DNA from: a virus
IMG/VR virus record: IMGVR_UViG_3300037725_000018
Location: 124,001-188,000 of that record
Length of the DNA stretch: 64,000 bases
Strand: one strand, 5' to 3'
The position numbers and the translations under genes are program-made. The stretch's first letter is position 1, and every line of letters starts with the position of its first letter. Under the pieces are notes generated by a model. That model did no database searches, had not been told where the DNA came from, and saw nothing but the letters and a program-made list of their open reading frames with translations. Below, piece by piece: positions 32,840 to 52,300 of this stretch.

Positions 32840-33172
32840 ATGAAAAACGAAAAGGTTGAATACATCGTCACCTTCGAAGCTTCCATCGGAAACAAGATTT
32901 CCCTTATCAAGCACTTTCGTTCTCTAACAAAGTCCTACATCAAGCCTGCTAAGGATGCAATCACGTCGGCAGTGAGCCGGGAGAAGTGGGAGGGGGTTGC
33001 CGATGGGGAAATCGATTCGTATTCCTTCAACATCATCATGGGTGAAGAGGCGTTCAAAGAGCTTTCAAAAAACGTCATGATGCGGGAAGTCAATGCGGGT
33101 GGGGGCGAGCTTTCCGTCACGGGAGTTAAAGAAATTTTTCTTCCCGAAAATTACGGGCGCTTGGATGATTAG
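32840..33172 (+). CDS. 110-residue protein, unknown
   Basis: Start at ATG 32840, just after the leader motif; the longer frame from 32741 would run through the SprT terminator. Strand YIVTFEASIG, a helix, then VADGEIDSYSFNIIMGEEA and a final beta unit. No family recognised. Confidence 0.65.
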   Translation: MKNEKVEYIVTFEASIGNKISLIKHFRSLTKSYIKPAKDAITSAVSREKWEGVADGEIDSYSFNIIMGEEAFKELSKNVMMREVNAGGGELSVTGVKEIFLPENYGRLDD

Positions 33173-33214
33173 ATGATTAGCTAACTGCCTCCTTACTTAT
33201 GAATAATGTAATGT

Positions 33215-33249
33215 GGGGAAGGCGCGTTCACTTGCGCCTTCCCTGCTTT
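33215..33249 (+). terminator. intrinsic terminator
   Basis: GGGAAGGCGC pairs with GCGCCTTCCC; followed by TGCTTTTTAT. Confidence 0.8.
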
Positions 33250-33326
33250 TTATTTGTGGGAACAACGGGCCAAAGGTTTGGTTTGTCCTGTGGCTTGACA
33301 AAAACAAAAGAAGAAAGGAAAAGATC

Positions 33327-33890
33327 ATGAAAGCATTAAAAACGATTTTTATTTTAACCATCGGGATCATGATTGGGATCTGGTTTGGGGCTCCGGAACC
33401 CGAAGTCAAAACCAAAACGATTGTGAAAACGAAAACTGTAGAGAGGTCTTCGCCAAAAGACCTTCACATGAACGCGGAATATTTGGCTTCGGCTCTGTAT
33501 TCGGAAACGAAAGATATGTCCAACTTTGAATACATCGCTTGGACAATTCGAAACCGTGTTGAAAGCGAAGACTACCCGGATACGGTTATGGACGTAATCC
33601 TGCAAGAGCACCAATTTTCCGCATTCAACACAAGAGAAGGGCGCGAAAAGTACCTTTCCCTAACGCTTCAAACCACGTCAAGCACGCACTACAGACGTGC
33701 TTACCGGGTTGCAAGGTACGTGCTAAACGCTCCAATGGAAGTTAATCCGATGGAGGGGGTAACACACTTCTTCATGGAAGACACCTTAAAACAGACGCAG
33801 GGGATCTCTCAGCCTTTTTGGGCCGAAGGCAAGACGCCGTATTTTGTGAACGGACAGACGAAGTATTACCGTGGCATCCGGGCACCGTAA
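33327..33890 (+). CDS. SleB-type cell-wall hydrolase, anchored
   Basis: 187 residues from ATG 33327 (preceded by AAGAAAGGAAAAG, one of the few Shine-Dalgarno-like sites). Signal-anchor helix 4-21, a K/T-rich linker, then SALYSET with E60, IAWTIRNRV and DVILQEHQFSAF. Same family as the 6970 protein but with different anchor and tail. Predicted peptidoglycan hydrolase; whether it is endolysin or virion lysin is unknown. Confidence 0.85.
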   Translation: MKALKTIFILTIGIMIGIWFGAPEPEVKTKTIVKTKTVERSSPKDLHMNAEYLASALYSETKDMSNFEYIAWTIRNRVESEDYPDTVMDVILQEHQFSAFNTREGREKYLSLTLQTTSSTHYRRAYRVARYVLNAPMEVNPMEGVTHFFMEDTLKQTQGISQPFWAEGKTPYFVNGQTKYYRGIRAP

Positions 33891-35608: not shown

Positions 35609-35788
35609 ATGATTGTGCTTTACGAGTCTAGAAAAGAGTGGGGGGAAATCCGCGAATTTTCTGTTGGTCCCAACCCCACGATAGAGCTTCGGGGAGAAAC
35701 GTGCTCGATTGAAAACTTAGGTGATAACATTACAACCGTCAAATTCAAAAAAATTAAAATCAAGCGGGCCTTAAAAGAAATTTCATAA
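35609..35788 (+). CDS. mini-protein, M-h-h-h-E family (isolated member)
   Basis: 59 residues starting MIVLYESRKEWGEIREF, with a G-E turn (IELRGETCSIENLG) and terminal basic helix FKKIKIKRALKEIS. This is the full array plan (strand, charged segment, strand pair, basic helix) in a single gene 500 bases ahead of the array. Unknown function. Confidence 0.7.
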   Translation: MIVLYESRKEWGEIREFSVGPNPTIELRGETCSIENLGDNITTVKFKKIKIKRALKEIS

Positions 35789-35831
35789 AAAAGTAGGAAC
35801 CGGGCTTTATTCTCCCTGTTAAAGCAAACGG

Positions 35832-35847
35832 AAAAAGAGGGAACCCT
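35832..35847 (+). promoter_or_regulatory. GAGGGAACC leader motif
   Basis: AAAAAGAGGGAACCCT, about 25-40 bases before the 35872 ATG. Confidence 0.5.
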
Positions 35848-35871
35848 TTTCACCAACGAACCCTGTTTGCT

Positions 35872-36153
35872 ATGAACGCCACGAAAGAAGAGATCCGCGA
35901 AAAGTTTTCTCTTCCGTCTGACAGTCGGGCAAGGAAGCTTCGGGACATGTTTTCGAAGCACGTCACGTATCTGGACAAGAGCCTAAACCGGGCTTGGAAG
36001 GGTCCGGTCGAAGCGGTTGTGCCGAAAGAGAAGGCTAAAGACATGCGGGAAGCAATGAGCTTCATCGGTGCTCATGTGGATAAGACCGAAAGCCTTCCGG
36101 GTGGCCGCGTTCGGCTTTACAGCCGGGGCTACTACGTTCACGTTGGGGCTTAA
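35872..36153 (+). CDS. 93-residue protein, unknown
   Basis: Helical N-terminal two thirds (DMFSKHVTYLDKSLNRAWKG) and a C-terminal beta pair (GRVRLYSRGYYVHVGA). No family recognised. Followed by a strong terminator that separates it from the mini-gene array. Confidence 0.6.
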   Translation: MNATKEEIREKFSLPSDSRARKLRDMFSKHVTYLDKSLNRAWKGPVEAVVPKEKAKDMREAMSFIGAHVDKTESLPGGRVRLYSRGYYVHVGA

Positions 36154-36186
36154 ATGAAGCGACAGCTTCCCATTCAAACCCGCAGG

Positions 36187-36223
36187 AAGGCCCACAGGGG
36201 GAAACCTCTTGTGGGCCTTTGCC
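36187..36223 (+). terminator. intrinsic terminator
   Basis: AAGGCCCACA pairs with TGTGGGCCTT, with an inner AGG/CCT pair and T-run. Confidence 0.85.
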
Positions 36224-36310
36224 ATACCCTTTTCGGTTCCGAAAACTTCTTAGAAACAATTGTGTGGACAGGCAATATCTACCAGTAGACAAAGAAAAAT
36301 AACAAAGAAA

Positions 36311-36532
36311 ATGATTGCAGTTATAGTCTCGACGCCAAAAGACTACGGAGAAGCTTCAAAGCTTCGGATCTATCTTTCCGTTAATGACGTTTTTAAAGAA
36401 GGAAAAAAAGACTCCAAAGAAATTCAGGTTATTTCAACCCCAAATTTCACCCGAAAGCAAAACAACCAGATTGAAGAAAAGAGTTGGTTTAAAAATATAA
36501 GGTCTAAAAAAGAACAAGTAAAAAACCTTTAA
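36311..36532 (+). CDS. array mini-protein 1 (M-h-h-h family)
   Basis: 73 residues, first gene of the plus-strand array. MIAVIVSTPKDYGEA opens; IQVISTPNF is the central strand ending near P; C-terminal basic helix WFKNIRSKKEQVKNL. The start at 36311 gives the family N-terminus; a longer frame begins at 36260. Confidence 0.65.
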   Translation: MIAVIVSTPKDYGEASKLRIYLSVNDVFKEGKKDSKEIQVISTPNFTRKQNNQIEEKSWFKNIRSKKEQVKNL

Positions 36533-36536
36533 CGGC

Positions 36537-36689
36537 ATGATCATCATACTTAGCGAAACAGAAGAAGAAGATTATAAAGTGGAAGAAGTATTTGAATATG
36601 GCCCCGCTTCTATGTCTTGGTATCTTACAGATGATGAAGTTTCGAGAGAAGAGATTAGACACATAAAAAAAGACCTAAAAACATGGTAG
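36537..36689 (+). CDS. array mini-protein 2
   Basis: 50 residues: MIIILSETEEEDYKVEEV, then WYLTDDEVS and terminal helix REEIRHIKKDLKTW. Its last codons overlap the ATG of the next gene (ATGGTAG), as in an operon. Confidence 0.7.
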   Translation: MIIILSETEEEDYKVEEVFEYGPASMSWYLTDDEVSREEIRHIKKDLKTW

Positions 36690-37015
36690 TTTTCTTTGAA
36701 TCAAAAACGGAATTTTCAAATGCGCTTTCGAACTCTACGTCCAAAAACACACTTCTTGATCTTTCGGTTCGCGTAAACGGTGTTAAGCTTTCGTACGCGG
36801 AACACGAAAAGACATACAAAAAACATGTAAGTCCCAAATCTTTAAAGTTAGCGCAGAAGCAGGGGACGGTATTTGGGCTTTCCGACGAAAAAAAGCGGCT
36901 TACTCTGTCCGGTGGAAAGCTTGTATACAATTCGGGTTCATTTGCACTTTCTTCTGCTTTGTTTTCAACGTTTAAGTCAATATCCGGCTCGCACAAAACT
37001 GGCAATATAATATAA
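36683..37015 (+). CDS. array mini-protein 3 (extended)
   Basis: 110 residues, one of the longest members. MVVFFESKTEFSNAL, then VRVNGVKLSYAEHEKTYKK, the V-N-G beta-turn shared with members 6, 46375, 46584 and the remnant at 40298. A Ser/Leu-rich tail follows. Confidence 0.7.
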   Translation: MVVFFESKTEFSNALSNSTSKNTLLDLSVRVNGVKLSYAEHEKTYKKHVSPKSLKLAQKQGTVFGLSDEKKRLTLSGGKLVYNSGSFALSSALFSTFKSISGSHKTGNII

Positions 37016-37031
37016 CACAAGTTGAAAACCC

Positions 37032-37202
37032 ATGATTATCGTTGTGTCTGAAAATGAAAGAGATCGAAGAAGTCTTGTTGGCTTTCCTCTTCACAACAAG
37101 GGAGGATGCAAGCACGTACTAAACACAAAGCAATCTAAAGCCGCAAACTTGAAAAAGTCTATCGTGGCTAGAATTGAAATTGTGAACTTGCACGGTTGGT
37201 AA
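37032..37202 (+). CDS. array mini-protein 4
   Basis: 56 residues: MIIVVSENERDRRSLVGF, a G-C-K-H turn, then a basic helix KAANLKKSIVARIEI. Unknown function. Confidence 0.65.
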   Translation: MIIVVSENERDRRSLVGFPLHNKGGCKHVLNTKQSKAANLKKSIVARIEIVNLHGW

Positions 37203-37208
37203 AAGAAG

Positions 37209-37388
37209 ATGATTTTCATAATGTACGAAACAAAAAAAGAGCAGAGGCGTTCTTACATTAACGCAAATGGAGAAGGTTTTTGTTTTTTTGGTTGGGAGGG
37301 AATGAAACTTTTGCCGGAAACAAAACTTAAAAGAATTGTAATCGAAAGGTTCAGAGAAGCTAGAGTGAAAAATGGTCGTCATTTTTGA
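37209..37388 (+). CDS. array mini-protein 5
   Basis: 59 residues: MIFIMYETKKEQRRSYI, FCFFGWEGMKLLP as central strand ending in P, and helix ETKLKRIVIERFREARVK. It overlaps the next ATG by 17 bases. Confidence 0.7.
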   Translation: MIFIMYETKKEQRRSYINANGEGFCFFGWEGMKLLPETKLKRIVIERFREARVKNGRHF

Positions 37389-37617
37389 AACAGAAAAAGA
37401 AGTCGTTGACGCAATTTCATATAAAAACGTTCCCGCAAAGTGGGAAGTCAACGGAAAACCAGTAGAGGCAAAAGAGGTTATCGTAATGCCAAATAACCTA
37501 ACAAAAAATCACTTTCCCGCCCACAAACAAATTGTGAAACGAAATCTTCACGAAAAGCAAGAAGACCTCTCGATTCTAAAAAAAGTTTGGTCGTTTGCAG
37601 CGTCAATCTTCAACTAA
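37372..37617 (+). CDS. array mini-protein 6
   Basis: 81 residues: MVVIFETEKEVVDAI, WEVNGKPVEAKEVIVMP (V-N-G turn then strand ending in P), helix HKQIVKRNLHEKQ and an extra hydrophobic tail. A clear relative of member 3. Confidence 0.7.
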   Translation: MVVIFETEKEVVDAISYKNVPAKWEVNGKPVEAKEVIVMPNNLTKNHFPAHKQIVKRNLHEKQEDLSILKKVWSFAASIFN

Positions 37618-37619
37618 AA

Positions 37620-37799
37620 ATGCCCATGCCCATAATCGTCGGAAAAAGAAAGGAGCTTAAAGAGGCTTACGTTATCCCAATGACACAAAGACAGTCCCGG
37701 ACCTACAAATGGTTTAAGCATTCTGAAGTAAGAAATATGGGAACTAAGATGGTCAAGGAGTTAATCAGAGAAATATCATCTGAACTTAAAAGAAATTGA
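37620..37799 (+). CDS. array mini-protein 7
   Basis: 59 residues: MPMPIIVGKRKELKEAYVIP, then terminal helix MVKELIREISSELKRN. The start strand is shortened relative to other members. Confidence 0.6.
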   Translation: MPMPIIVGKRKELKEAYVIPMTQRQSRTYKWFKHSEVRNMGTKMVKELIREISSELKRN

Positions 37800-37809
37800 A
37801 ACCCAAGTT

Positions 37810-37995
37810 ATGTTCATTGTATTTGAAAGCGAAAAAGAGCGAAAAGAAGCTGTAAACACCGACAAATCATCGGTTCGTTCATTTTGGATTGAGGAAGAAA
37901 TGATTTCAATTAAAAACGTCATGCGGGTTTACAGTTGGGACAACATGCGGCTCGGAAAGTCTCAGGCACGCAAAAAAGTAGCACATAGGCTTTAA
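37810..37995 (+). CDS. array mini-protein 8
   Basis: 61 residues: MFIVFESEKERKEAVN, a middle strand pair (FWIEEEMISIKNVMRV) and a basic end GKSQARKKVAHRL. Confidence 0.7.
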   Translation: MFIVFESEKERKEAVNTDKSSVRSFWIEEEMISIKNVMRVYSWDNMRLGKSQARKKVAHRL

Positions 37996-38002
37996 TAAGG
38001 AT

Positions 38003-38188
38003 ATGCAAATTATATTCGAGACGTACCTAAAATTTCAAGCTCACTCCACGCCGGAGCTTAGTTTTTCCGGCTTCAAGGTCGGGGAAGCAAGAGACGTGCC
38101 TTCCCGTTGCATCCATGTTAAAAACACAGACACGATCCGGTCTATAAAAAAGCGGCTTCGAAAAGGGCTCGCGCAAGGCAAAAATTGA
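38003..38188 (+). CDS. array mini-protein 9
   Basis: 61 residues: MQIIFETYLKFQAHST, middle VPSRCIHVKNTD and the archetypal terminal helix DTIRSIKKRLRKGLAQ. Followed by the C-rich intergenic element. Confidence 0.7.
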   Translation: MQIIFETYLKFQAHSTPELSFSGFKVGEARDVPSRCIHVKNTDTIRSIKKRLRKGLAQGKN

Positions 38189-38192
38189 CTTC

Positions 38193-38275
38193 CATATCGA
38201 GACCGGGTAGAGAAACGATTTCAAAAGACCTACCCCCCTTCAAATAACAAGTTCAATTGACCCCCCCCCCTTAAG
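38193..38275 (+). repeat. C-rich intergenic element, copy 1
   Basis: TATCGAGACCGGG, then GAAACGATTTCA, a stretch with CAAGTT, and two C-runs ending in C10 at 38261-38270. The same order of motifs occurs at 40475-40556. The C10 lies 6 bases before the next ATG. Confidence 0.6.
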
Positions 38276-38276
38276 G

Positions 38277-38438
38277 ATGGTTTTGATTGCACATTCGCAT
38301 AAAGAACTTCAAATTGCAGTTAGAATGTCACACGACCTTCTTCTTGTTCACGATTCGGTTTTCTTTCCCCGCTCTTCATACTGGATTCGAAACAAAGAAA
38401 ATATGCATCGGTTCATAAAAAGTGATTTGAAAGTGTAA
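38277..38438 (+). CDS. array mini-protein 10
   Basis: 53 residues: MVLIAHSHKELQIAVRM, LLLVHDSVFFPRSSYW (strand ending near P) and helix NMHRFIKSDLKV. Its start lies directly behind a C10 homopolymer, a possible slippage site affecting the leader. Confidence 0.65.
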   Translation: MVLIAHSHKELQIAVRMSHDLLLVHDSVFFPRSSYWIRNKENMHRFIKSDLKV

Positions 38439-38455
38439 AGATTAGTAGTAACATC

Positions 38456-38665
38456 ATGGTTGTTGTATATACAAAGAAAACATTAAGGAAGATAGAATCA
38501 AAGGTCGTGGAAAAGTTTTTAGAAGAAGATGAGGACGCTTTTATTATGCCAGTGGAGCTTCCGGTGTTGAACTACAAGACGCAGCGGAGCATTGTCCAAA
38601 ACGCGATTCAGTCTACGTCGTGGGAAGAATACACAAACCCTGAAATGCGACCTCAAAACATATGA
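38456..38665 (+). CDS. array mini-protein 11
   Basis: 69 residues: MVVVYTKKTLRKIESKVVEK, DAFIMPVELPVLN and helix KTQRSIVQNAIQS. Stop overlaps the next ATG by 4 bases (ATGA). Confidence 0.7.
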   Translation: MVVVYTKKTLRKIESKVVEKFLEEDEDAFIMPVELPVLNYKTQRSIVQNAIQSTSWEEYTNPEMRPQNI

Positions 38666-38844
38666 TCATTATCCTTCCAGAAAACGAAAAAGAACACGGG
38701 GCAGCTCTTTGGCGTCGGTGGGACAAAAATCCCAAGATACTTGTCCTTCCATACCGAATGTCAAGTTTTCAAGGAGAAGGTGGGGCAGCCGTTTTCGGGA
38801 GGGTAAGGTTTCACGTAAAAGACAAACTAAGTAAAAAAGCATGA
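38662..38844 (+). CDS. array mini-protein 12
   Basis: 60 residues: MIIILPENEKEHGAALW, PKILVLPYRM (central strand with P) and basic end HVKDKLSKKA. The stop overlaps the broken next copy. Confidence 0.7.
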   Translation: MIIILPENEKEHGAALWRRWDKNPKILVLPYRMSSFQGEGGAAVFGRVRFHVKDKLSKKA

Positions 38845-39035
38845 TGGTTTTGATCTTTCAAGATGAAGAGTAAAGAAGTAAGGTTCTTGAGCAGCCCGGA
38901 GCAACCTTTTTTTCAAAAGTCAAATGCCACGACAAGAACATTAGAATTAAAGAAACGTGTGAATTTCTTCAAGGCAGGCTAAGAAACTCTAAAAAGCTGT
39001 CTAAACTTTTGAGGCTAAAAATTAAAACGGCTTAA
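38841..39035 (+). pseudogene. array mini-gene with in-frame stop
   Basis: The frame opens M-M-V-L-I-F-Q-D-E-E, hits TAA at codon 11 (38871-38873), then stays open in the same frame to 39035 with the expected body (ATFFSKVKCHDKNIRIKE) and basic end (KLSKLLRLKIKTA). The simplest reading is a nonsense mutation in a former member. TAA is a normal stop elsewhere in the window, so recoding is unlikely. Confidence 0.7.
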
Positions 39036-39043
39036 TAGAAGAA

Positions 39044-39238
39044 ATGCAAATCATCTTCAACGACATAGACGAAATCAAATCGTGCATCGAAGAGTCAATA
39101 TATGCCAACTCGAAAACGCGCACCCTTAGAGGAACAAATGTTTCCATAAACGTTTGGGACATGTGGCACACCGATTATGTGCGAGCTAATGGAGCAGAGG
39201 TTATAAAAAAAGTTAGATCCAAATTGAAAGAAGAATGA
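39044..39238 (+). CDS. array mini-protein 14
   Basis: 64 residues: MQIIFNDIDEIKSCIEE, TNVSINVWDMWH and terminal helix GAEVIKKVRSKLKEE. The stop overlaps the next ATG (ATGA). Confidence 0.7.
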   Translation: MQIIFNDIDEIKSCIEESIYANSKTRTLRGTNVSINVWDMWHTDYVRANGAEVIKKVRSKLKEE

Positions 39239-39450
39239 TTATATACTTCGAACGTGGCGAAAAACAAAAAAGCCACCTGCGCGGCCTTTTTGGAAGGCAA
39301 AAGAAAACAGACCTTTCCTTCCACTTCGGAAAGATTGAAGACACAGACTGCTATTGGTATAACATTTCCGGAAACACAAAACGAAAAAGACCGGGTGAAG
39401 GTCTTAGAAGCAGAGAGCACTTAAAATTCATAACCGAAATTGCAATTTGA
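39235..39450 (+). CDS. array mini-protein 15
   Basis: 71 residues: MIIYFERGEKQKSHLRG, LSFHFGKIEDTDCYWYNIS and a basic stretch KRKRPGEGLRSREH. Coupled to the previous gene by a 4-base overlap. Confidence 0.65.
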   Translation: MIIYFERGEKQKSHLRGLFGRQKKTDLSFHFGKIEDTDCYWYNISGNTKRKRPGEGLRSREHLKFITEIAI

Positions 39451-39457
39451 AAACCCC

Positions 39458-39643
39458 ATGCATATACTTTTTGAGGACACACGCGAATTTAAAAAATACG
39501 ACGGGACGTTTTATTACTTCAACGGTGGGCCGGAAATTTACGCGCATGAAGCAAGTGTTTTGACATACAGACGCAAAAAACTTACATTAGACAAACAAAA
39601 AAGAAAGCGCGTAAAAAAGAGGCTCAAAAAAAACATCGCATAA
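39458..39643 (+). CDS. array mini-protein 16
   Basis: 61 residues from ATG 39458: MHILFEDTREFKKYDGTF, EIYAHEASVLTY and a very basic terminal helix KQKRKRVKKRLKKNIA. Confidence 0.7.
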   Translation: MHILFEDTREFKKYDGTFYYFNGGPEIYAHEASVLTYRRKKLTLDKQKRKRVKKRLKKNIA

Positions 39644-39662
39644 CGGCGGCAGCAGGCAAAAA

Positions 39663-39848
39663 ATGGTTATTATAGTATCGGAAGAAAACACAAAACAAAA
39701 AACGTGGACGTTTTACGATAAAAATTTTTTTTCAGATCACAAGACGTGGTTTATCCCCACGGAGTCTTATGAAATAGAGCAAGGAGAAAGGTTCCCAAGC
39801 GTCCGGAGAAAAGCGAATACATCCCATATCATCAAGTCTCTTTCTTAA
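39663..39848 (+). CDS. array mini-protein 17
   Basis: 61 residues: MVIIVSEENTKQKTW, TWFIPTESYEIEQGER (strand with P) and C-terminal RKANTSHIIKSLS. Confidence 0.65.
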   Translation: MVIIVSEENTKQKTWTFYDKNFFSDHKTWFIPTESYEIEQGERFPSVRRKANTSHIIKSLS

Positions 39849-39852
39849 ACCA

Positions 39853-40020
39853 GTGATTATAGCAATTCCAGAATCCAAATTTGAGTGGCAAGTTTTCTAT
39901 CAAGACTTACCTTTTAAAGATTTAAAAGTTGTCCCGGAACCCCGAATTTACGATAACTACATAGAAATGTCAAGAAAAAGAACGGTTCTTTCGATAATAA
40001 AGGAACAAACAACTTCTTGA
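39853..40020 (+). CDS. array mini-protein 18 (GTG start)
   Basis: 55 residues from GTG 39853: V-I-I-A-I-P-E-S-K-F-E-W, LKVVPEPRIYDN and helix RKRTVLSIIKEQTTS. GTG starts recur in the array (44916, 45358, 46170). Confidence 0.6.
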   Translation: MIIAIPESKFEWQVFYQDLPFKDLKVVPEPRIYDNYIEMSRKRTVLSIIKEQTTS

Positions 40021-40022
40021 AA

Positions 40023-40082
40023 ATGATCATCACGATTCCAGCGGAGAATAATAAAGAAAGAGAAAAATGGGAATGCTTGTAA
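40023..40082 (+). pseudogene. truncated array mini-gene
   Basis: MIITIPAENNKEREKWECL then stop: 19 residues covering only the family's first strand and charged helix. The next gene starts inside it at 40067. Probably the 5' remnant of a deleted copy, though a tiny leader peptide cannot be excluded. Confidence 0.5.
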
Positions 40083-40249
40083 TCTTTGAAAATTTTGAAG
40101 AAATGGACAAAGTTTCAAAACCGAAGGGAAAGTACGAGCTTGTCGGGGAAGCAAAAGTCCCCGCGTTCAACGTCCACGTCAAAAGAAACTTCAAACGCCC
40201 AAGCGTGTTTAGAAGAGAAATGAAAATAGCTGTGTTCTCTAAGTTGTAA
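40067..40249 (+). CDS. array mini-protein 20
   Basis: 60 residues: MGMLVIFENFEEMDKVS (an ATG two codons later would give MLVIFE), YELVGEAKVPAFNVHV and terminal FRREMKIAVFSKL. Confidence 0.65.
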   Translation: MGMLVIFENFEEMDKVSKPKGKYELVGEAKVPAFNVHVKRNFKRPSVFRREMKIAVFSKL

Positions 40250-40297
40250 GAGCAAAAGCAATAAGACAGCCATCCCGACCACTTTTCCTTGGACATG

Positions 40298-40413
40298 ATA
40301 CAGACAAAGAGTATTACAACATCCGGTCACACAAACCCGAAAGCGGTTTATTAGTAGGTGGTTTGCATATAAACGGGGAAAAGCTTTCTAGCCATTGGAT
40401 ATATGTCAGGTGA
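40298..40413 (+). pseudogene. decayed array mini-gene remnant
   Basis: An open stretch without a usable start encodes FLGHDTDKEYYNIRSHKPES and then LHINGEKLSSHWIYV. The I-N-G-E-K-L turn matches the V-N-G strand pair of members 3, 6 and 46584. The N-terminal strand and terminal helix are missing. Confidence 0.4.
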
Positions 40414-40428
40414 GTGAATGGAAGAAAG

Positions 40429-40441
40429 CCCCACACAAGGC
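40429..40441 (+). repeat. CCCCACACAAGGC repeat, copy 1
   Basis: A 13-base word found also at 41217 and 46867, each time at the edge of an array segment. Here it is followed by the palindrome CCTCACGTGAGG (40451-40462) rather than by a complementary GTGGGG, so the hairpin is not complete. Confidence 0.6.
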
Positions 40442-40474
40442 AAATAAAACCTCACGTGAGGTAAAATATGGTTT

Positions 40475-40556
40475 TTATATTGAGACCGGGGCGAAAACCA
40501 TTTCATTTTTACCGGGGGTACCGATTATAGCAAGTTATTTTTACCCCCACCCCCCT
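40475..40556 (+). repeat. C-rich intergenic element, copy 2
   Basis: TATTGAGACCGGG, GAAAACCATTTCA, CAAGTT and a final ACCCCCACCCCCC, in the same order as 38193-38275. The rest of 40250-40788 has no credible gene; GTAGAATGTACA also occurs twice (about 40556 and 40587). Confidence 0.55.
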
Positions 40557-40788
40557 GTAGAATGTACACAGCCTTGTAGTAGATGGTAGAATGTACATGT
40601 GAATTCAAAAAGCCGTTTCAAAACGAAATGCAAAAGCTTCAATTCAAGACAAAGCACATGTAGTTTTTACCGTTTGCAGTTTTGGCATGGAATTTGCCTT
40701 CTGCGTCAAAACAAGACGTGTAGCTTTTACAAGGGAGGTGGGCGTTGGCATACAGTTTGCTTTAAAAAACCATAAACAGATAATTGGC

Positions 40789-40950
40789 ATGATTGTTGTT
40801 ATCGAAAGAAGAGAAGACATAAACGGCTCCAGCCTTAAATTTTTTGATTCTGAAATAAGGCTAAAAGTAGGCAGGGCAGTTGTTCGTAGGTGGTGCCCGT
40901 CTGGGTGGCCTTTACGATACAAAAGAGAGTACATCCGAAAGCATATTTGA
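40789..40950 (+). CDS. array mini-protein 21
   Basis: 53 residues from ATG 40789: MIVVIERREDINGSSLKF, RLKVGRAVVRRWCP and basic end RYKREYIRKHI. A longer frame from 40687 lacks family character at its start. Confidence 0.65.
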   Translation: MIVVIERREDINGSSLKFFDSEIRLKVGRAVVRRWCPSGWPLRYKREYIRKHI

Positions 40951-40969
40951 AAACCAGTTGAAAAAAGAT

Positions 40970-41143
40970 ATGATCGTTATCCTTGTTGAAGAGAAGGCCA
41001 ATTCTTTTAGCGTCGAAGACTTTGAAAAAGAAGTTGCAGTTATCCCAAGTGCAAAGGCGTACGTCTCTCTTTCGGTTCTTTCAAATGTTCAAGGGCTAAA
41101 GATGCGGAGGCGACATGTGGATAATGCCATTCGAAAGCTTTAA
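40970..41143 (+). CDS. array mini-protein 22
   Basis: 57 residues from ATG 40970: MIVILVEEKANSFSVEDF, EVAVIPSAKAYV (central strand with P) and helix MRRRHVDNAIRKL. Last gene of the first array block. Confidence 0.7.
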   Translation: MIVILVEEKANSFSVEDFEKEVAVIPSAKAYVSLSVLSNVQGLKMRRRHVDNAIRKL

Positions 41144-41216
41144 TAGAAGCCTCTGTCTTTTCTTCTAAGAAGTTTTTCATGTGTGCCCTTGCGGTGGGAT
41201 AGGCAAATAAAAAAAA

Positions 41217-41251
41217 CCCCACACAAGGCAAATTGGCGCCTCGCGTGGGGA
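41217..41251. terminator. hairpin with CCCCACACAAGGC repeat
   Basis: CCCCAC pairs with GTGGGG, and inner AGGC with GCCT. It lies between the array and the convergent 41278 gene and can serve both directions. Confidence 0.75.
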
Positions 41252-41277
41252 ATTGGGTGCCCGAATGTGGCCGACGT

Positions 41278-41553
41278 TTACAGATTCATCGCCATAGCCG
41301 AAGCCAAGTGCTTCAAGAAGTGATGGATATCTCCGTTTTTGAAATCAATCTTTCGAATGATCCTTTCAATCCGTTTCCTCTCTTGTCCCCGCGTCTGTTT
41401 GATCTGTTCAATCACATTTGAAGCTTGGATGTAGTTGACGGTTCCGTTTTCAGACTCGACGGTGTAAGTGCGGGTAGTGTCAACGTCTGCTTCCTTGAAG
41501 TACGTCGTGATGAAGTCGTTCATCGGCTTTTTGTTTTGTGAAAGAGTCTCCAT
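41278..41553 (-). CDS. 91-residue protein, unknown
   Basis: Start at ATG 41553; the longer frame would include the upstream hairpin. METLSQNKKPMNDFITTY, strand pair TYTVESENGTVNYIQASN, helix QIKQTRGQERKRIERIIRK. First of the minus-strand single-gene units. Function unknown. Confidence 0.6.
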   Translation of the reverse strand: METLSQNKKPMNDFITTYFKEADVDTTRTYTVESENGTVNYIQASNVIEQIKQTRGQERKRIERIIRKIDFKNGDIHHFLKHLASAMAMNL

Positions 41554-41580
41554 TGTCACGTCTAACAACACAATTAAAAA

Positions 41581-41620
41581 ACGAGCGCCCCCCAAGGATG
41601 TTCCCAAGGGAGGCGCTCGT
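41581..41620 (-). terminator. terminator hairpin
   Basis: ACGAGCGCCTCCC / GGG-GGCGCTCGT type stem after the 41628 gene. Close relative of the hairpin at 41949. Confidence 0.75.
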
Positions 41621-41627
41621 CTTGGTT

Positions 41628-41897
41628 TTACCAATCCCAACTGTCCCAATTGTTTTCGGTTTCAAAAACCACTTCTCCGTCTTCGACTCGCTGAATAATG
41701 TTTTTGTTATACAACGTGTACGTTCTCATTCGCCCGTCAGAATACTTCATGACAAGCGAGTGGTCGGAAGGAAGAGTCTTCGTCTCCCGGCCTTCATTTT
41801 TGGAAAAACGAAAGTAATGCTTTGCTTCTTCTTTCCGGTAAAACACATTCAAGTGTTCATCGGAGAGAACAAAAAACGGGGCTTCGTAATCAAACAT
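41628..41897 (-). CDS. 89-residue protein, unknown
   Basis: Start ATG 41897. MFDYEAPFFVLSDEHLNVFY, YFRFSKNEGRETK, SLVMKYSDGRMRTYTLYNKN and an acidic tryptophan end NNWDSWDW. Beta-rich. No family recognised. Confidence 0.6.
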   Translation of the reverse strand: MFDYEAPFFVLSDEHLNVFYRKEEAKHYFRFSKNEGRETKTLPSDHSLVMKYSDGRMRTYTLYNKNIIQRVEDGEVVFETENNWDSWDW

Positions 41898-41917
41898 GTT
41901 TCTGTTTGCTTTTATGA

Positions 41918-41944
41918 AGTTTCCTCTCTTTAAGCCAGTGCAAT
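41918..41944 (-). promoter_or_regulatory. GAGGAAAC leader motif
   Basis: TTGCACTGGCTTAAAGAGAG then GAAAC on the minus strand, about 21-47 bases before the 41897 start. Confidence 0.45.
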
Positions 41945-41948
41945 AAAC

Positions 41949-41984
41949 AAGCGCCCCCCAAGGGTGTTCCCAAGGAAGACGCTC
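41949..41984 (-). terminator. terminator-like hairpin (weaker)
   Basis: AAGCGCCCCCCAAGGGTG partly pairs with TTCCCAAGGAAGACGCT. Shares the word CGCCCCCCAAGG with 41581, so one is probably derived from the other. Confidence 0.55.
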
Positions 41985-42013
41985 GTTTTGGTTTTTCAAT
42001 TGCAACTTCCTTT

Positions 42014-42184
42014 TTACGAAGGAAGTGGAACTTCCGTCACGTTGGGTTCGCCATAGTTTTCTTCTAGCTCTTCAATCGAATCGTACCCGGCGTCGTCTAC
42101 GTAATACGCCAAAGCATCTTCTTTGCTTTCGGCGGCGTAGAGGCCCAACATGGTTCCGTTTGCGGAAATCTCAAATGCTTTCAT
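42014..42184 (-). CDS. 56-residue protein, unknown
   Basis: Start ATG 42184: MKAFEISANGTMLGLYAAES then a helix EDALAYYVDDAGYDSIEEL. The strand pair followed by an 'x-A-x-x-Y' helix resembles small phage proteins of the 42238 type. Unknown function. Confidence 0.55.
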   Translation of the reverse strand: MKAFEISANGTMLGLYAAESKEDALAYYVDDAGYDSIEELEENYGEPNVTEVPLPS

Positions 42185-42211
42185 GAGCTTCGGTGGTTTT
42201 TGTTTTCTTTC

Positions 42212-42232
42212 CCTGTGCAACCTTGTAAACCC
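42212..42232 (-). promoter_or_regulatory. TTGCACAGGGAAAG leader motif
   Basis: AAGGTTGCACAGGGAAAGAAA on the minus strand, about 28-48 bases before the 42184 start. Confidence 0.4.
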
Positions 42233-42237
42233 ACAGC

Positions 42238-42510
42238 CTACGAGTATGTTTCACGAACGCACGTGAACGTTTCTTCCGGCCACGGGGGACCGGAGATTTC
42301 CCGAAGCTGCCTTCCGTCTTCATCAATCTCAAAGACTTCCACATCTTCGAGCTTCGCCTCTTCCCACGGGAACAGGTTTAGCTCCATGTGGGCTTGATTT
42401 CGAGCGTTGTCTACCGCCTTTTGTGGACTTGCACTTGACCGGGCATAGACAAACCCGTATCGGCCCGAGTCCTTGCCAGTTGCAACTGCCGATGCTTCGT
42501 AGGTAGCCAT
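42238..42510 (-). CDS. 90-residue protein, unknown
   Basis: MATYEASAVATGKDSGRYGF, helix SPQKAVDNARNQAHME, strand EDVEVFEIDEDGRQLREISG. An alpha/beta unit reminiscent of DRBM or small ferredoxin-like folds, but not assignable. Confidence 0.6.
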   Translation of the reverse strand: MATYEASAVATGKDSGRYGFVYARSSASPQKAVDNARNQAHMELNLFPWEEAKLEDVEVFEIDEDGRQLREISGPPWPEETFTCVRETYS

Positions 42511-42530
42511 TTGTTTCTTTTGTCTTTGTG

Positions 42531-42556
42531 AACAGGTTCTCTTTTCTAAGCCACTA
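42531..42556 (-). promoter_or_regulatory. GAGAACC leader motif
   Basis: GTAGTGGCTTAGAAAAGAGA then ACCTGT on the minus strand, about 21-46 bases before the 42510 start. A (CAA)n run follows at 42556-42580. Confidence 0.4.
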
Positions 42557-42581
42557 CAACAACAACAACAACAACAAACAA

Positions 42582-42609
42582 AAGGGAAGGGGAACTGCTC
42601 CCCTTCCCG
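42582..42609 (-). terminator. terminator hairpin
   Basis: GGGAAGGGG pairs with CCCCTTCCC around a 7-base loop. Confidence 0.75.
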
Positions 42610-42646
42610 TGTGAAGATTTGTTTAACTAGTGAAACTTAGCTTCAG

Positions 42647-42841
42647 TTAAGAAGAAGACTTAGGGTAGATGATTTCCGAACCAACAGTTCGGGCGTCTTC
42701 GTCTTCGTAGCGGTAGAGAACTTCCGCGTCTTCCCCAAGACGCTTTGCGTGGTTTATAGCCTCTACCTCCGAAAGATAAAACGCGGTGTCCGGGCCGTAG
42801 TTTCCATCGGGGGAAACAAGGTATTCTTCTGAAATCGTCAT
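42647..42841 (-). CDS. 64-residue protein, unknown
   Basis: Start ATG 42841: MTISEEYLVSPDGNYGPDTA, helix SEVEAINHAKRLGED, then VLYRYEDEDARTVGSEIIYP. Function unknown. Confidence 0.55.
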   Translation of the reverse strand: MTISEEYLVSPDGNYGPDTAFYLSEVEAINHAKRLGEDAEVLYRYEDEDARTVGSEIIYPKSSS

Positions 42842-42894
42842 ATCGGTTTTTGTTGTTAACTGTCTGTCTTGAAGCTTTGAGTTTCCTGTTAACC

Positions 42895-43176
42895 TCACAC
42901 ACTTGCCCAATCGGGATCTTCCCCTTCACGGGTAATGTCTTCGGCAGAAAAGCTTCGGACCCGGTGAGGAAAGAAATACACCTTCATATTTTCCCCATCG
43001 ATAGAAGCGACGTATCCACCACTTCCTTCGGTGGCCTTGTCAAGTTGACGCCGCACCTCGTAGGATTGGGGAGTGTCGTCAAACTCGACGGTAATGGTTC
43101 CTTCTTCCTCAAGCTGGTGCCAGAACTCTTCAGTTGCCGGGTGCGGGTCTTCAACGTGAACGTGAATGTTATCCAT
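42895..43176 (-). CDS. 93-residue acidic protein, unknown
   Basis: MDNIHVHVEDPHPATEEFWH then ITVEFDDTPQSYEVRRQLD and GGYVASIDGENMKVYFFPHR. Beta-rich, no family recognised. The last minus-strand gene before an 820-base non-coding stretch. Confidence 0.6.
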   Translation of the reverse strand: MDNIHVHVEDPHPATEEFWHQLEEEGTITVEFDDTPQSYEVRRQLDKATEGSGGYVASIDGENMKVYFFPHRVRSFSAEDITREGEDPDWASV

Positions 43177-43995
43177 AGGGTTAAGTGTTTGGGATGTTGC
43201 GGATTGTCTGCCGAAAAATGCGTGTGCTTAAAAAGGTGTTGGAAGATGAAGTTCCGTGAAGCTTGTGTGAAGTGTGAATACTCTGTGAAGAGGGAACACT
43301 TTGTTGGTTTGAAGGTTTAAGTTAGTGCAGGGGGAGGAATATCTTTTTTTGCGTAAGTAGATTCTGTGAAGTGGAATGAATATTGCTTCGGTAGCAAATT
43401 CCATTCCAACCCTTCCGGCAGGTGTTCATTCAATATTGATTTATGTTTCCTGTAGAGACTCAAGTAAACTTATTTTAGCCCCCAACCCTCTTAGACGCCG
43501 TTGAACGGGCTTTGGGCTTTTATTTGAATATTGAATATTGAATATTGAACGCCAAGTGCCAACCAACCTGCCTTCAGCGGCTACAGACGTAGATTCTATG
43601 TTTCTCGCTCGGGGTTTGGTAAACTTATTTATTGTTGGAACGGGTTTTGCTACCGTAGACATACAATAACACATCAAATACTATGCCACACCCCAAGGCA
43701 CATAGATCGCCTCTAAGCGGTTTAAGTGTTTGTAGGTATGTGGGGCAAGGCCATGTGGCGAAATCCACGCACACACGCGCACGTGCGCCCGTGAGGCTTG
43801 TCTTGATGTTAGCGGTGCAACGCTGTCCCCGCGTCTTTTGACACACGCTCCCTTGTGAGCTTAGGGACCTAAGTATGAGAAAAGATGCGGGGACGCTTTT
43901 CACGTGTCCCCGTTGACAGACGCCGAAGTTTTTTGATACACATTTGCCGGGTGGGAACAAACTTATAGTTTCCCCCGTTTTAGCGCCAAAAAAAG
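43177..43995. other. 820-base non-coding region with iterons and switch-like inverted repeats
   Basis: No credible gene. Visible structure: three GAATATT iterons (about 43526-43548) plus related CAATATTGAT and GAATGAATATTGC; palindrome GCGCACGTGCGC near 43777; CTTAGG-GA-CCTAAG at about 43860; and three mutually complementary segments GTCCCCGC (about 43825), GCGGGGAC (about 43887) and GTCCCCGT (about 43905). A regulatory leader or replication/partition site is possible. Confidence 0.45.
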
Positions 43996-44169
43996 ATGAT
44001 CGTCGTTATAGACAAAAAAGAAAGAGAAGACTTCGCTGCAACCAAGTTTCACAAGTTCGTAAACGTCCCTCCGGGTATGAGAAAAGACGTGGGGTGTCTT
44101 CATAACTTAGAAGACGGGTCCGGGCACCTTCTTCGGTTTGCAAAAGTTTTAGTCAAGTCTTACTTGTGA
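43996..44169 (+). CDS. array mini-protein 23 (second block)
   Basis: 57 residues: MIVVIDKKEREDFAATKF, FVNVPPGMRKDV (strand with P) and end LLRFAKVLVKSYL. First gene after the 820-base non-coding region. Confidence 0.65.
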   Translation: MIVVIDKKEREDFAATKFHKFVNVPPGMRKDVGCLHNLEDGSGHLLRFAKVLVKSYL

Positions 44170-44243
44170 AAGAAAAAGCTGACGTGCGTGGTCCCCGTAT
44201 ACAATTTTTATTAGCCAATGCCAATGTCAATTTTTATCCGTTT

Positions 44244-44456
44244 ATGGTTGTTCTTATTGAAACAAAAACAGAAGACGAAGAGTTTTACAATTACGTGTCC
44301 GGGATGCGGGTTTTGGTTTTGGGGACTTTTGAAACGGTCCCTTTATATCGAATACCGGATTTTGAAATTTTTAAGGTAGCCAAAACTGAAGGCTTCTGTG
44401 TAAAGGAGAATGGTCGGCTCACAATTCTTCATCACGGAATAGCAAAAGTGAGGTAA
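44244..44456 (+). CDS. array mini-protein 24
   Basis: 70 residues from ATG 44244: MVVLIETKTEDEEFYNYV, LGTFETVPLYRIPDFEIFKV, AKTEGFCVKENGRLTIL. A clear paralogue of the next gene: both contain F-E-T-x-x-L-Y, A-K-x-E-G and E-x-G-R-L in order. Confidence 0.7.
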   Translation: MVVLIETKTEDEEFYNYVSGMRVLVLGTFETVPLYRIPDFEIFKVAKTEGFCVKENGRLTILHHGIAKVR

Positions 44457-44461
44457 AAAAG

Positions 44462-44665
44462 ATGGTTCTTGTTTTCGAAGACGAAACAGAAAAAGAAAGG
44501 TTTGACAAACAGGTGTCCGAAACGGGCGTGGGAGTGTTTGGCCTTTTTGAAACCCTTTCTTTGTATAAAGAAAAAGCATTTAAGGTTCTTCGGTTTGCCA
44601 AAAGAGAAGGGCTAATTACAAGAGAAGACGGGCGTCTCATTTTAGTTTACTATGGAGTAGAGTAA
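44462..44665 (+). CDS. array mini-protein 25
   Basis: 67 residues: MVLVFEDETEKERFDKQV, FGLFETLSLYKEKAFKVLRF, AKREGLITREDGRLILVYY. Direct tandem paralogue of 44244, evidence that the array grows by duplication. Confidence 0.75.
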   Translation: MVLVFEDETEKERFDKQVSETGVGVFGLFETLSLYKEKAFKVLRFAKREGLITREDGRLILVYYGVE

Positions 44666-44681
44666 AACGTAGGGAAAAAAG

Positions 44682-44906
44682 ATGGTTATTCTTGTTGAAA
44701 ACAAAAGAGAAAAAACCCCTTTGAAAAAAGCGTGTGGGGGAAGAGTTGAAGACGAATTTGAACTTTTAAAAGAGCGGATTCTGTTGCACGCGGGGCACTC
44801 GTCTCCGATGGATTTTCTAGTGTACATCAAAAAAAGGCTCCACTCTTGCCCAAGCACCGGAAGACTTACCTGCGACATAACGCCAATACGTAACAACAAA
44901 AAATAA
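44682..44906 (+). CDS. array mini-protein 26
   Basis: 74 residues: MVILVENKREKTPLKKA, ELLKERILLHAGHSSP and helix DFLVYIKKRLHSC. Unknown function. Confidence 0.65.
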   Translation: MVILVENKREKTPLKKACGGRVEDEFELLKERILLHAGHSSPMDFLVYIKKRLHSCPSTGRLTCDITPIRNNKK

Positions 44907-44915
44907 CAGACAGTT

Positions 44916-45113
44916 GTGGTTGTTATCATTGAAGACTCGAAACTTGTTTCAGAAATTCAAGACTACTTCTCCGTCTGTTTAGAGGAAAATCTTGATGTGT
45001 ATGAGCAGGTTTGGCTTTGCCGTGTGGATAGCAGCAAGCCGGAATATTTGCGTTTTATGAAAAAACGCGGATTTGACAGGATAGAAGAGAACAAAAGAAT
45101 GATTTTTAAGTAA
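44916..45113 (+). CDS. array mini-protein 27 (GTG start)
   Basis: 65 residues from GTG: V-V-V-I-I-E-D-S-K-L-V-S-E-I, YEQVWLCRVDSSKP and FMKKRGFDRIEENKRMIFK. It resembles 45358 near its end (G-F-x-x-x-E/R). Confidence 0.65.
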   Translation: MVVIIEDSKLVSEIQDYFSVCLEENLDVYEQVWLCRVDSSKPEYLRFMKKRGFDRIEENKRMIFK

Positions 45114-45165
45114 GCATACGCAAGGGAAAAATTAGCTCCTTCATCAAAACTGCGTAAAGTGTGCA

Positions 45166-45351
45166 ATGATTGTTTTCGTTGTTGAAAGCACAGAAGGCAA
45201 GTCCGCGTTTTTTGATTTGACAAACAAAAACCGGAAAAACTTTGGAAGCGGCGTAAGCGTGGTTTTCTCTCATAAGTACGTCGGCTCCGGAACGGCCCGA
45301 GAATGCGCTTTGAAAGTCAAACAAAAGATCAAAAAATCCAAGCAAAAGTAA
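45166..45351 (+). CDS. array mini-protein 28
   Basis: 61 residues: MIVFVVESTEGKSAFFDL, GVSVVFSHKYVGSG and terminal helix RECALKVKQKIKKSKQK. Confidence 0.7.
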   Translation: MIVFVVESTEGKSAFFDLTNKNRKNFGSGVSVVFSHKYVGSGTARECALKVKQKIKKSKQK

Positions 45352-45357
45352 TGAGCC

Positions 45358-45543
45358 GTGGTTATCCTAATAGAAAGCAAAAAAGAGGAAAAAGAGCTTA
45401 ATAACTTAGTGAGGAGTTCTGGTTTTGAACTTGACTTTCTTGAAAGACTTCCTGCCTTTTGGCACGTGCCGGAACTTTTGCTGCGTGACCTGAAAACGGT
45501 AGGTTTTAAAACAGAACAAAGGCGATTAAAATTTAATCGGTAG
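45358..45543 (+). CDS. array mini-protein 29 (GTG start)
   Basis: 61 residues from GTG: V-V-I-L-I-E-S-K-K-E-E-K-E-L, FLERLPAFWHVPELLLRDLK and end RRLKFNR. Confidence 0.65.
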   Translation: MVILIESKKEEKELNNLVRSSGFELDFLERLPAFWHVPELLLRDLKTVGFKTEQRRLKFNR

Positions 45544-45558
45544 TAACCGAATCAGCTA

Positions 45559-45753
45559 ATGATTGTCATTTTGAAAAACATACAGGAGGGCAGGCATTTA
45601 GAAAATGTTAAGGGGGTGGGTCCCAAAAGAGAAGAGGTCGTATACGAATATAGATATGGGCCACGCCTGCGGGTTCAAATCCTAAGAGATTGCAGAAAAG
45701 GGGCAAAAGAAGGTGGGGAGCGGCTGAAAATTCCGGGCCGAATACGTCAGTAA
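45559..45753 (+). CDS. array mini-protein 30
   Basis: 64 residues: MIVILKNIQEGRHLENV, EEVVYEYRYGPRLRV, helix ILRDCRKGAKEGGERLKIP. A clear paralogue of 45770 (both have K-R/K-E-x-x-x-Y, L-x-D-x-R-x-G, R-L-K-x-P). Confidence 0.7.
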   Translation: MIVILKNIQEGRHLENVKGVGPKREEVVYEYRYGPRLRVQILRDCRKGAKEGGERLKIPGRIRQ

Positions 45754-45769
45754 AAACAGATATGTAAAT

Positions 45770-45970
45770 ATGATCGTCATTGCAAATAACTTAAATGAAG
45801 ACCGTTGGATAGTGGGACACCCGAATATCGAAAGAAAAGAAATTGCCTACGTTTACGTGTGGACACGGGAAGAGAGGACCCGTCTTTTAAAAGACTTCAG
45901 GCGGGGGATAAAAAAGAGTGGCAAAAGGCTAAAAATGCCCGATCACATGGAAACAAGTAAAAAATGGTAA
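45770..45970 (+). CDS. array mini-protein 31
   Basis: 66 residues: MIVIANNLNEDRWIVG, RKEIAYVYVWTREERTRLLK, DFRRGIKKSGKRLKMP. Tandem paralogue of 45559. Confidence 0.7.
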   Translation: MIVIANNLNEDRWIVGHPNIERKEIAYVYVWTREERTRLLKDFRRGIKKSGKRLKMPDHMETSKKW

Positions 45971-45981
45971 AAACGCTTCCC

Positions 45982-46173
45982 ATGATATTCATCTTCAAAG
46001 AGTTTGAGTACTCAAACAACATTGACTTCTTTAAAGAGACGATTATTTCAAGCGACGGGTTGGTAAAGTCCGGTTCTGTCGTTGCCGATTCTCCCGGAAC
46101 AATCCCTCTAACAAAGAGTTCATACAAAAAAATCAAAGAATACGTCAAAACCCGGTTGTCAAACAAACAGTGA
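45982..46173 (+). CDS. array mini-protein 32
   Basis: 63 residues from ATG 45982 (MIFIFKEFEYSNNIDFF); an upstream ATG at 45964 would overlap the previous gene. VVADSPGTIPLTKSSY then terminal helix KKIKEYVKTRLSNKQ. The stop overlaps the next GTG. Confidence 0.65.
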   Translation: MIFIFKEFEYSNNIDFFKETIISSDGLVKSGSVVADSPGTIPLTKSSYKKIKEYVKTRLSNKQ

Positions 46174-46355
46174 TCATCATCGAAGAAAACATGTTTGAAC
46201 AGAAGCTAACGTTTCCCATTCGGCTTGCCCCCGAAGAACGAGTAAGCCGAAAAGACGCTTTCTTAAACGGGTGTATCTCTGCGCTTACTTTGCATAACCC
46301 AAGTGAAGGCTGGACGAAAAGGCGGCTTTGTTTAATCACCGAACGTTACCAATAA
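46170..46355 (+). CDS. array mini-protein 33 (GTG start)
   Basis: 61 residues from GTG: V-I-I-I-E-E-N-M-F-E-Q-K, FPIRLAPEERVSRKDAF and end KRRLCLITERYQ. Overlaps the previous stop by 4 bases. Confidence 0.65.
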   Translation: MIIIEENMFEQKLTFPIRLAPEERVSRKDAFLNGCISALTLHNPSEGWTKRRLCLITERYQ

Positions 46356-46374
46356 CGAAACCCTTTGAAAAGAT

Positions 46375-46572
46375 ATGGTCGTTTGCTTTGAAAACGAAAA
46401 TGAACTTGTTTCCAATACAACGATTCTTTTCGGGCGCAAGTCCGTAAACGGAATCATTCTTGACCCTGAAGAAATTTGTATAGTCAAAAGACCGGATAAT
46501 ATCCATGCCCAAGTTGAAAAAAGCTTTTCGACCTGTCGCCTCACCTGTTTTGTAAAAAGTTCACGCACATAA
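46375..46572 (+). CDS. array mini-protein 34
   Basis: 65 residues: MVVCFENENELVSNTTI, SVNGIILDPEEICIVKRP (V-N-G turn then strand with P) and helix HAQVEKSFSTC. Confidence 0.65.
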   Translation: MVVCFENENELVSNTTILFGRKSVNGIILDPEEICIVKRPDNIHAQVEKSFSTCRLTCFVKSSRT

Positions 46573-46583
46573 AAACCGGACTC

Positions 46584-46784
46584 ATGGTTGTCTATTTTGA
46601 AAAAAGAACGGAGTTTCTAAACCATTCACAATTCACAAATCGATTTCGAACAACAATAACCGTTAACGGGCAGGTTCTTGTCAATTGCGAATATATCGTC
46701 TCGCCCAATAAAAAAGCGCCCCTTCAAATAAAAGAAAAGGACGTTCCTTTGTATCCGGGAACGCGCCTTGTTTTCGTTTTTTAA
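46584..46784 (+). CDS. array mini-protein 35
   Basis: 66 residues: MVVYFEKRTEFLNHSQF, TITVNGQVLVNCEYIVSP. Shares the V-N-G-x-x-L strand pair with members 3 and 6. Last gene of the second block. Confidence 0.7.
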   Translation: MVVYFEKRTEFLNHSQFTNRFRTTITVNGQVLVNCEYIVSPNKKAPLQIKEKDVPLYPGTRLVFVF

Positions 46785-46866
46785 ACGCTTGCCCAAAGCT
46801 TTGCAGAAGGCGCAAGACGGGTTTTCGGCTTTCGGTCTTTAAGGTACCCTTTACATACAGAGAAAA

Positions 46867-46904
46867 CCCCACACAAGGCGTCCATTTGCCTCATGTGGGG
46901 CCTC
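46867..46904. terminator. hairpin with CCCCACACAAGGC repeat
   Basis: CCCCAC pairs with GTGGGG; AGGC and GCC T inner pairs; followed by CCTCTTTTG. Lies between the array end and the convergent 46929 gene. Confidence 0.75.
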
Positions 46905-51105: not shown

Positions 51106-51257
51106 CGATATTGATTGAAAAACCCAATGAGGCAAACCGTTTTTTAAACTTTAAGATACGGTCGGGTGAACGCATGATTGCAAAACCTAGTTCCCTCAAA
51201 AACAAAATTATTGCATTGCGCCAAATCAAAGAATCTGTAAGGGCCGAAAAGAAATGA
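51102..51257 (+). CDS. array mini-protein 37
   Basis: 51 residues: MTILIEKPNEANRFLNF, ERMIAKPSSLKN (strand with P) and helix KIIALRQIKESVRAEKK. Overlaps both neighbours by 4 bases (ATGA). Confidence 0.7.
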   Translation: MTILIEKPNEANRFLNFKIRSGERMIAKPSSLKNKIIALRQIKESVRAEKK

Positions 51258-52298: not shown

Positions 52299-52300
52299 AC

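Follow-up and report, generated by a model that had tools for sequence, protein, structure and literature searches.

What are the dozens of small genes that are tiled side by side along one part of a large phage genome, and what do they have in common? The stretch of DNA in question, here called the window, spans 64 kb and corresponds to positions 124001-188000 of the IMG/VR record IMGVR_UViG_3300037725_000018; coordinates given below are positions within the window unless stated otherwise. An initial annotation of the window had described arrays of related mini-genes on the plus strand and had proposed that they encode small effectors, either for taking over the host or for countering its defences, which remains a plausible inference. 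The observation held up and could be extended, whereas the interpretation is only partly supported. The mini-genes have in common a short N-terminal segment, referred to here as the head, and we favor, at about even probability, the view that their products, about 50 small strand-helix proteins, make up one family that is specific to this lineage and diverges fast; the role of these proteins would most likely be accessory and directed at the host. About 50 such genes in one phage is unusual in scale.

Organization of the mini-gene arrays

Member starts were corrected by means of the head, and only intact plus-strand open reading frames (ORFs) carrying the head were counted, which resulted in 40 mini-genes. 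These form three tiled blocks (35609-41143, 43996-46784, and 50905-52724), essentially all genes of which have the head. The blocks were confirmed as first described, except that the first member lies one gene earlier, at 35609 instead of 36311. The mini-genes are 50-110 codons in length (mean 64 amino acids (aa), median 61), and the intergenic gaps within blocks are mostly -4 to +19 bases, with several 4-base overlaps. The likely starts at 36311, 37626, 39458, 40073, 40789, 40970, 44244, and 45982 are internal to longer mechanical ORFs. One additional member, at 38844, is broken by a stop after nine codons. Each entry below is a mini-gene unless stated otherwise; head scores are defined in the next section.

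35609-35788 (+): 59 aa, MIVLYESRKEWGE...; opens block 1, just upstream of the span first annotated
36311-36532 (+): 73 aa, weak head score
36537-36689 (+): 50 aa, best head score
36683-37015 (+): 110 aa, longest; V-N-G turn
37032-37202 (+): 56 aa
37209-37388 (+): 59 aa
37372-37617 (+): 81 aa, V-N-G turn
37626-37799 (+): 57 aa
37810-37995 (+): 61 aa
38003-38188 (+): 61 aa; modeled as beta-alpha-beta-beta-beta-alpha, predicted local distance difference test (pLDDT) 65
38277-38438 (+): 53 aa
38456-38665 (+): 69 aa
38662-38844 (+): 60 aa
38844-38982 (+): broken member, head MVLIFQDEE followed by a stop; ORF 38863-38982 next, in another frame
39044-39238 (+): 64 aa
39235-39450 (+): 71 aa, 4-base overlap with preceding gene
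39458-39643 (+): 61 aa
39663-39848 (+): 61 aa
39853-40020 (+): 55 aa, GTG start
40073-40249 (+): 58 aa
40789-40950 (+): 53 aa
40970-41143 (+): 57 aa
43996-44169 (+): 57 aa, opens block 2
44244-44456 (+): 70 aa, tandem paralogue of 44462
44462-44665 (+): 67 aa, tandem paralogue of 44244; modeled, pLDDT 51
44682-44906 (+): 74 aa
44916-45113 (+): 65 aa, GTG start
45166-45351 (+): 61 aa
45358-45543 (+): 61 aa, GTG start
45559-45753 (+): 64 aa, tandem paralogue of 45770
45770-45970 (+): 66 aa, tandem paralogue of 45559
45982-46173 (+): 63 aa
46170-46355 (+): 61 aa, GTG start, 4-base overlap
46375-46572 (+): 65 aa, V-N-G turn
46584-46784 (+): 66 aa, V-N-G turn
50905-51105 (+): 66 aa, opens block 3
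51102-51257 (+): 51 aa, 4-base overlap
51254-51478 (+): 74 aa, 4-base overlap
52122-52298 (+): 58 aa, weak head score
52301-52585 (+): 94 aa
52566-52724 (+): 52 aa
23784-23960 (-): 58 aa, MHIIFEELSLVDN..., 7.9 bits; carries the head but is separate from the arrays

Full-length homology is clear only for two tandem pairs, the same two that had been singled out at the outset; their C-terminal parts score 104 and 84 with BLOSUM62, and the next pair, at 44, is near noise. The ratio of nonsynonymous to synonymous substitution rates (dN/dS) for the pair 44244/44462 is 0.41, showing purifying selection on this pair; in the other pair, synonymous substitutions have reached saturation.

The shared N-terminal head

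The part common to the proteins encompasses the first ~11 residues and consists of Met and four residues that are mostly hydrophobic, followed by one that is acidic or polar and, in most members, by the motif [STDN]xxE. Hydrophobic residues occupy positions 2-5 in 88-100% of members, Glu is the commonest residue at positions 6, 7, and 10, and further hydrophobic positions follow the head at 14, 15, and 18. The motif [STDN]xxE, which is a helix N-cap (capping) box, was found in 26 of the 40 members, compared to an expected 10.0 and a maximum of 19 in 2000 shuffles. A position-specific scoring matrix (PSSM) covering residues 2-12 was then applied with a threshold of 8 bits. This search resulted in 45 ORFs from this genome, most of which are the members used to build the PSSM, none from the reversed genome, and only two small ORFs from 835 kb of three relatives. 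Held-out heads scored 10.5 bits versus 2.4 for controls; when members were left out one at a time, eight of the 40 scored below 4 bits and therefore fit loosely. The N-terminal pattern reported initially was confirmed. Judging from this pattern and from the low-confidence models described below, the head reads as a buried beta-strand that is followed by an amphipathic helix with its capping box.

If these genes were ordinary phage ORFans (ORFs without known relatives), their likeness would be one of N-terminal composition only, with no common origin or function. Most of the bodies indeed cannot be aligned, but the head pattern is far above chance, is nearly confined to this genome with respect to the relatives scanned, and is concentrated in co-oriented arrays, which makes this explanation improbable. 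Outside the arrays, six ORFs scored at least 8 bits and two more scored above 7 bits. Because these roughly eight high-scoring ORFs lie elsewhere in the genome, on both strands, the head-bearing family appears to be dispersed as well as arrayed.

A protein feature or a nucleic acid signal

A pattern at gene starts could also stem from a DNA or mRNA signal, either for translation initiation where the host makes no use of Shine-Dalgarno motifs or from internal promoters. Consistent with such a signal, Shine-Dalgarno motifs are nearly lacking in both gene classes (4% of large genes and 2.5% of mini-genes), and mRNA structure is weak at the start regions of mini-genes (-4.09 versus -6.96 kcal/mol internally). 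However, large genes are equally unstructured at their starts (-4.03 versus -6.43 kcal/mol internally) and have ordinary N-termini; the start regions of mini-genes are no more open than those of other genes. In addition, the head encodes Ile and Val by varying synonymous codons, and the capping box belongs to the protein level. Because the codons vary and large genes have equally open starts yet ordinary N-termini, the head is a protein feature, conserved as protein and not as DNA. Translation initiation or mRNA structure as its cause was rejected because of the synonymous variation and the equal openness of large genes, and the explanation by a nucleic acid signal, already largely refuted, is left with a minimal probability.

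The leaders upstream of genes in this phage are A-rich. Scarce Shine-Dalgarno motifs and A-rich leaders are reported for Bacteroidota (PMC6847099), and since both are seen here, a Bacteroidota host is likely. With such a host, a scan for sigma-70-type consensus promoters is uninformative.

Sequence and structure beyond the head

The remainder of the proteins was compared by half-and-half cross-validation. Residues 12 to the end scored 0.86 bits versus 0.20 in control small genes, with an excess in at least 19 of the 20 splits, which are not independent of each other; the signal in this C-terminal part is weak but consistent. The last 20 residues alone gave only a slight signal. A basic C-terminal helix, formerly attributed to most members, was found in 15 of 38 (6.7 expected), which is fewer than claimed yet above all 1000 shuffles, and a hydrophobic strand followed by Pro, likewise rarer than first described, was found in 8 of 38 (3.7 expected), a count that some shuffles reach. 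The strong head signal and the weak C-terminal signal fit the earlier description of members that are related but have diverged almost beyond pairwise recognition.

AlphaFold models were obtained for two groups. The model of six paralogues (pLDDT 51) contains helices at residues 8-21 and 39-48, and that of ten other members (pLDDT 65, predicted template modeling score 0.42) contains strands at residues 3-5, 24-26, 29-31, and 36-38 and helices at 8-13 and 42-58. A helix from residue 8 is common to both low-confidence models.

Several of these results weigh against the family that we favor. Both AlphaFold models are poor, and a Foldseek search with the better one (pLDDT 65) gave no match to a known fold. 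The protein middles alone showed no cross-validated homology signal in half-and-half splits, and a profile built from ten members failed to recognize the remaining thirty beyond the head; descent of the entire proteins from one ancestor is therefore not proven. The gap-rich alignment of the middles is unreliable, such that the result for the middles speaks neither for nor against one fold. Given the low-confidence models and the lack of a transferable profile signal in the middles, the single shared fold anticipated in the initial annotation is not shown.

The main rival to a family is that the head serves for docking or sorting, as an N-terminal tag on small proteins whose bodies would be unrelated cargo; the 11-residue strand-helix would bind one partner by strand addition or direct the proteins to one place, in the manner of the capsid-targeting peptides of phage internal proteins. 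The strong sharing of the head alone, set beside signal-free middles, speaks for this possibility, as does a second tag-like family in the same phage, in which a different head, MKLSRRKLKRIIREE...LNE, precedes the varied bodies of ~13 late proteins. Because of that second family, the tag principle probably exists in this virus. However, a PSSM scan of the genome found no protein longer than 130 aa with the mini-gene head at 6 bits or more, the length range is narrow, the tandem pair 44244/44462 is conserved over its full length, and a weak signal is present in the C-terminal part. Moreover, the all-hydrophobic strand with its capping box suggests a folded core rather than an exposed peptide. 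We consider a tag of this kind less likely than a family. A modular effector library, in which one phage or host partner would recruit about fifty otherwise unrelated mini-proteins via the head, is doubtful.

Comparison with capsid-targeting peptides

A more specific proposal is that the heads are capsid-targeting peptides with prohead-protease sites (Phi-x-E), like those of T4 internal proteins, and that virions take up the mini-proteins and eject them along with the DNA. Phi-x-E occurs within residues 3-8 in 26 of the 40 members, but about one third of members are without it, the arrays are away from the minus-strand genes for the phage head and on the opposite strand, and the MKLSRRKLKRIIREE...LNE family is a far better candidate for targeting. 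A T4-type targeting peptide that ends in the prohead-protease site [IL]-x-E is not a common feature of the 40 members. The prohead-protease tag was largely rejected because of the members that do not have Phi-x-E, and packaging of the mini-proteins is very unlikely.

The second family consists of ~13 minus-strand proteins with varied bodies that start with MKLSRRKLKRIIREE...(L/M)(N/S/Q)E, which resembles a capsid-targeting segment followed by a prohead-protease site. Four of these proteins had no PHROG match, and six similar proteins with heads of this type are encoded in the uncultured phage LR756508. The loci are as follows.

L016:13008-20000 and L017 (-): same phage, past the left end of the record
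Genome 4304-5053, 28028-28588, 30575-30904, 33038-33337 (-): outside the window

Searches for relatives

Scanning the 40 members against Pfam, PHROGs, and PADLOC resulted in chance-level matches of single members (best E 0.0046-0.0055), and no family was matched by more than one member. Profiles of two sub-groups found nothing significant in the PDB (best E 0.77). Neither tblastn with two members against 50,697 phage records nor megablast of the array region against phages gave a match, and no relatives of the mini-genes were detected in a viral-contig or a genome-contig collection when the queries were mini-proteins joined end to end, genes flanking the arrays, and one exact 34-mer. A profile of all 40 members, searched against phages immuto, LR756508, and Mel-JY01 and three related contigs, gave two weak matches in LR756508 (best E 0.04). 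Because the collection scans detect close relatives only, distant relatives may exist. No description of a family with this layout was found in the literature, and the earlier statement that none was known agrees with these database and collection searches.

Source genome and neighboring features

The source virus is a large T4-like myovirus; its major head, portal, and terminase proteins are T4-like as well, and the 223,357-bp record is a fragment of its genome. A second assembly of the same phage reaches 21.8 kb past the record on the left, which gives a genome of 245 kb or more. The nearest named relative by major head protein is the uncultured 484-kb phage LR756508 (66%), followed by Microcystis phage Mel-JY01 (52%) and Flavobacterium phage immuto (48%). 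The closest sister phage is ~80-85% identical over aligned parts; its contigs do not span the mini-gene arrays.

Other features were noted near the arrays and elsewhere in this phage. The repeat CCCCACACAAGGC lies between or beside mini-gene blocks at 40422-40445, 41210-41233, and 46860-46883, the first two copies belonging to terminator-like hairpins.

41576-41629 and 41942-41995: two copies of a 54-bp hairpin (89% identical) flanking a small minus-strand gene
51449-52093 (-): possible membrane-anchored metallopeptidase inside the third block (hydrophobic N-terminus; HEIIHLLHH)
1329-1743 (-): phage-encoded transfer-messenger RNA with tag GNVNRVPAGVNMEEHFGASLAA, adjoining tRNA-Ala
L007:2837-4312 (-): protein with a strong match to PHROG 850, annotated as RNA-binding protein (E 1.4e-128)

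Proposed origin and role

In favor of a lineage-specific family, we counted the specificity of the head PSSM, the capping box, the hydrophobic positions 14, 15, and 18, the helix from residue 8 in both models, the narrow lengths, the C-terminal signal, the broken copy at 38844, the synonymous variation in the head, the dN/dS of the pair 44244/44462, and the failure to find a known family or relative. Such a family may have originated by tandem duplication, dispersal, and decay within one large T4-like phage. The pattern and the low-confidence models suggest that most members would be one small strand-helix domain, often with a basic C-terminal helix, in which the head would provide a core beta-strand running into the capped amphipathic helix. 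The shared strand-helix could act as a scaffold and the variable remainder as a binding surface. The mini-genes would be expressed on tightly packed transcripts apart from the minus-strand structural genes, and their layout and divergence point to a probable host-directed role, as small inhibitors or decoys.

Small ORFans represent a very large unexplained fraction of phage genomes. Here, about fifty ORFans of one genome are joined by one testable N-terminal signature, and therefore a single structure or binding partner could explain many of them. A large diversified set of paralogues in one phage would also be a natural library in which to study the evolution of small inhibitors.

Comparison with known systems

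T4-type internal proteins (IPI-III and Alt) carry the same capsid-targeting sequence at their N-termini on bodies that vary, and like them the mini-proteins are small phage proteins that share only a short N-terminal segment. In contrast to those proteins, the mini-proteins have a head made of a hydrophobic strand and a helix cap, in which a protease site is not uniformly present, and the mini-genes are in plus-strand arrays apart from the genes for the phage head; in this phage, a separate family is the candidate for the role of internal proteins. Lineage-specific multigene families also occur in other large viruses, and the mini-genes resemble these in that copies have expanded in tandem, diverged, and dispersed and that one of them is broken, but differ in that members are only ~60 aa and have no relative in the collections searched. 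Host-takeover modules of large phages, such as the SPO1 small-gene cluster and the early small ORFs of T4, provide a further parallel, since in an accessory position the mini-genes likewise form dense runs of tiny genes that are closely packed in one orientation and have no known homologues. To our knowledge, the SPO1 and T4 clusters mostly consist of unrelated genes, whereas in this phage about 50 genes have one N-terminal pattern.

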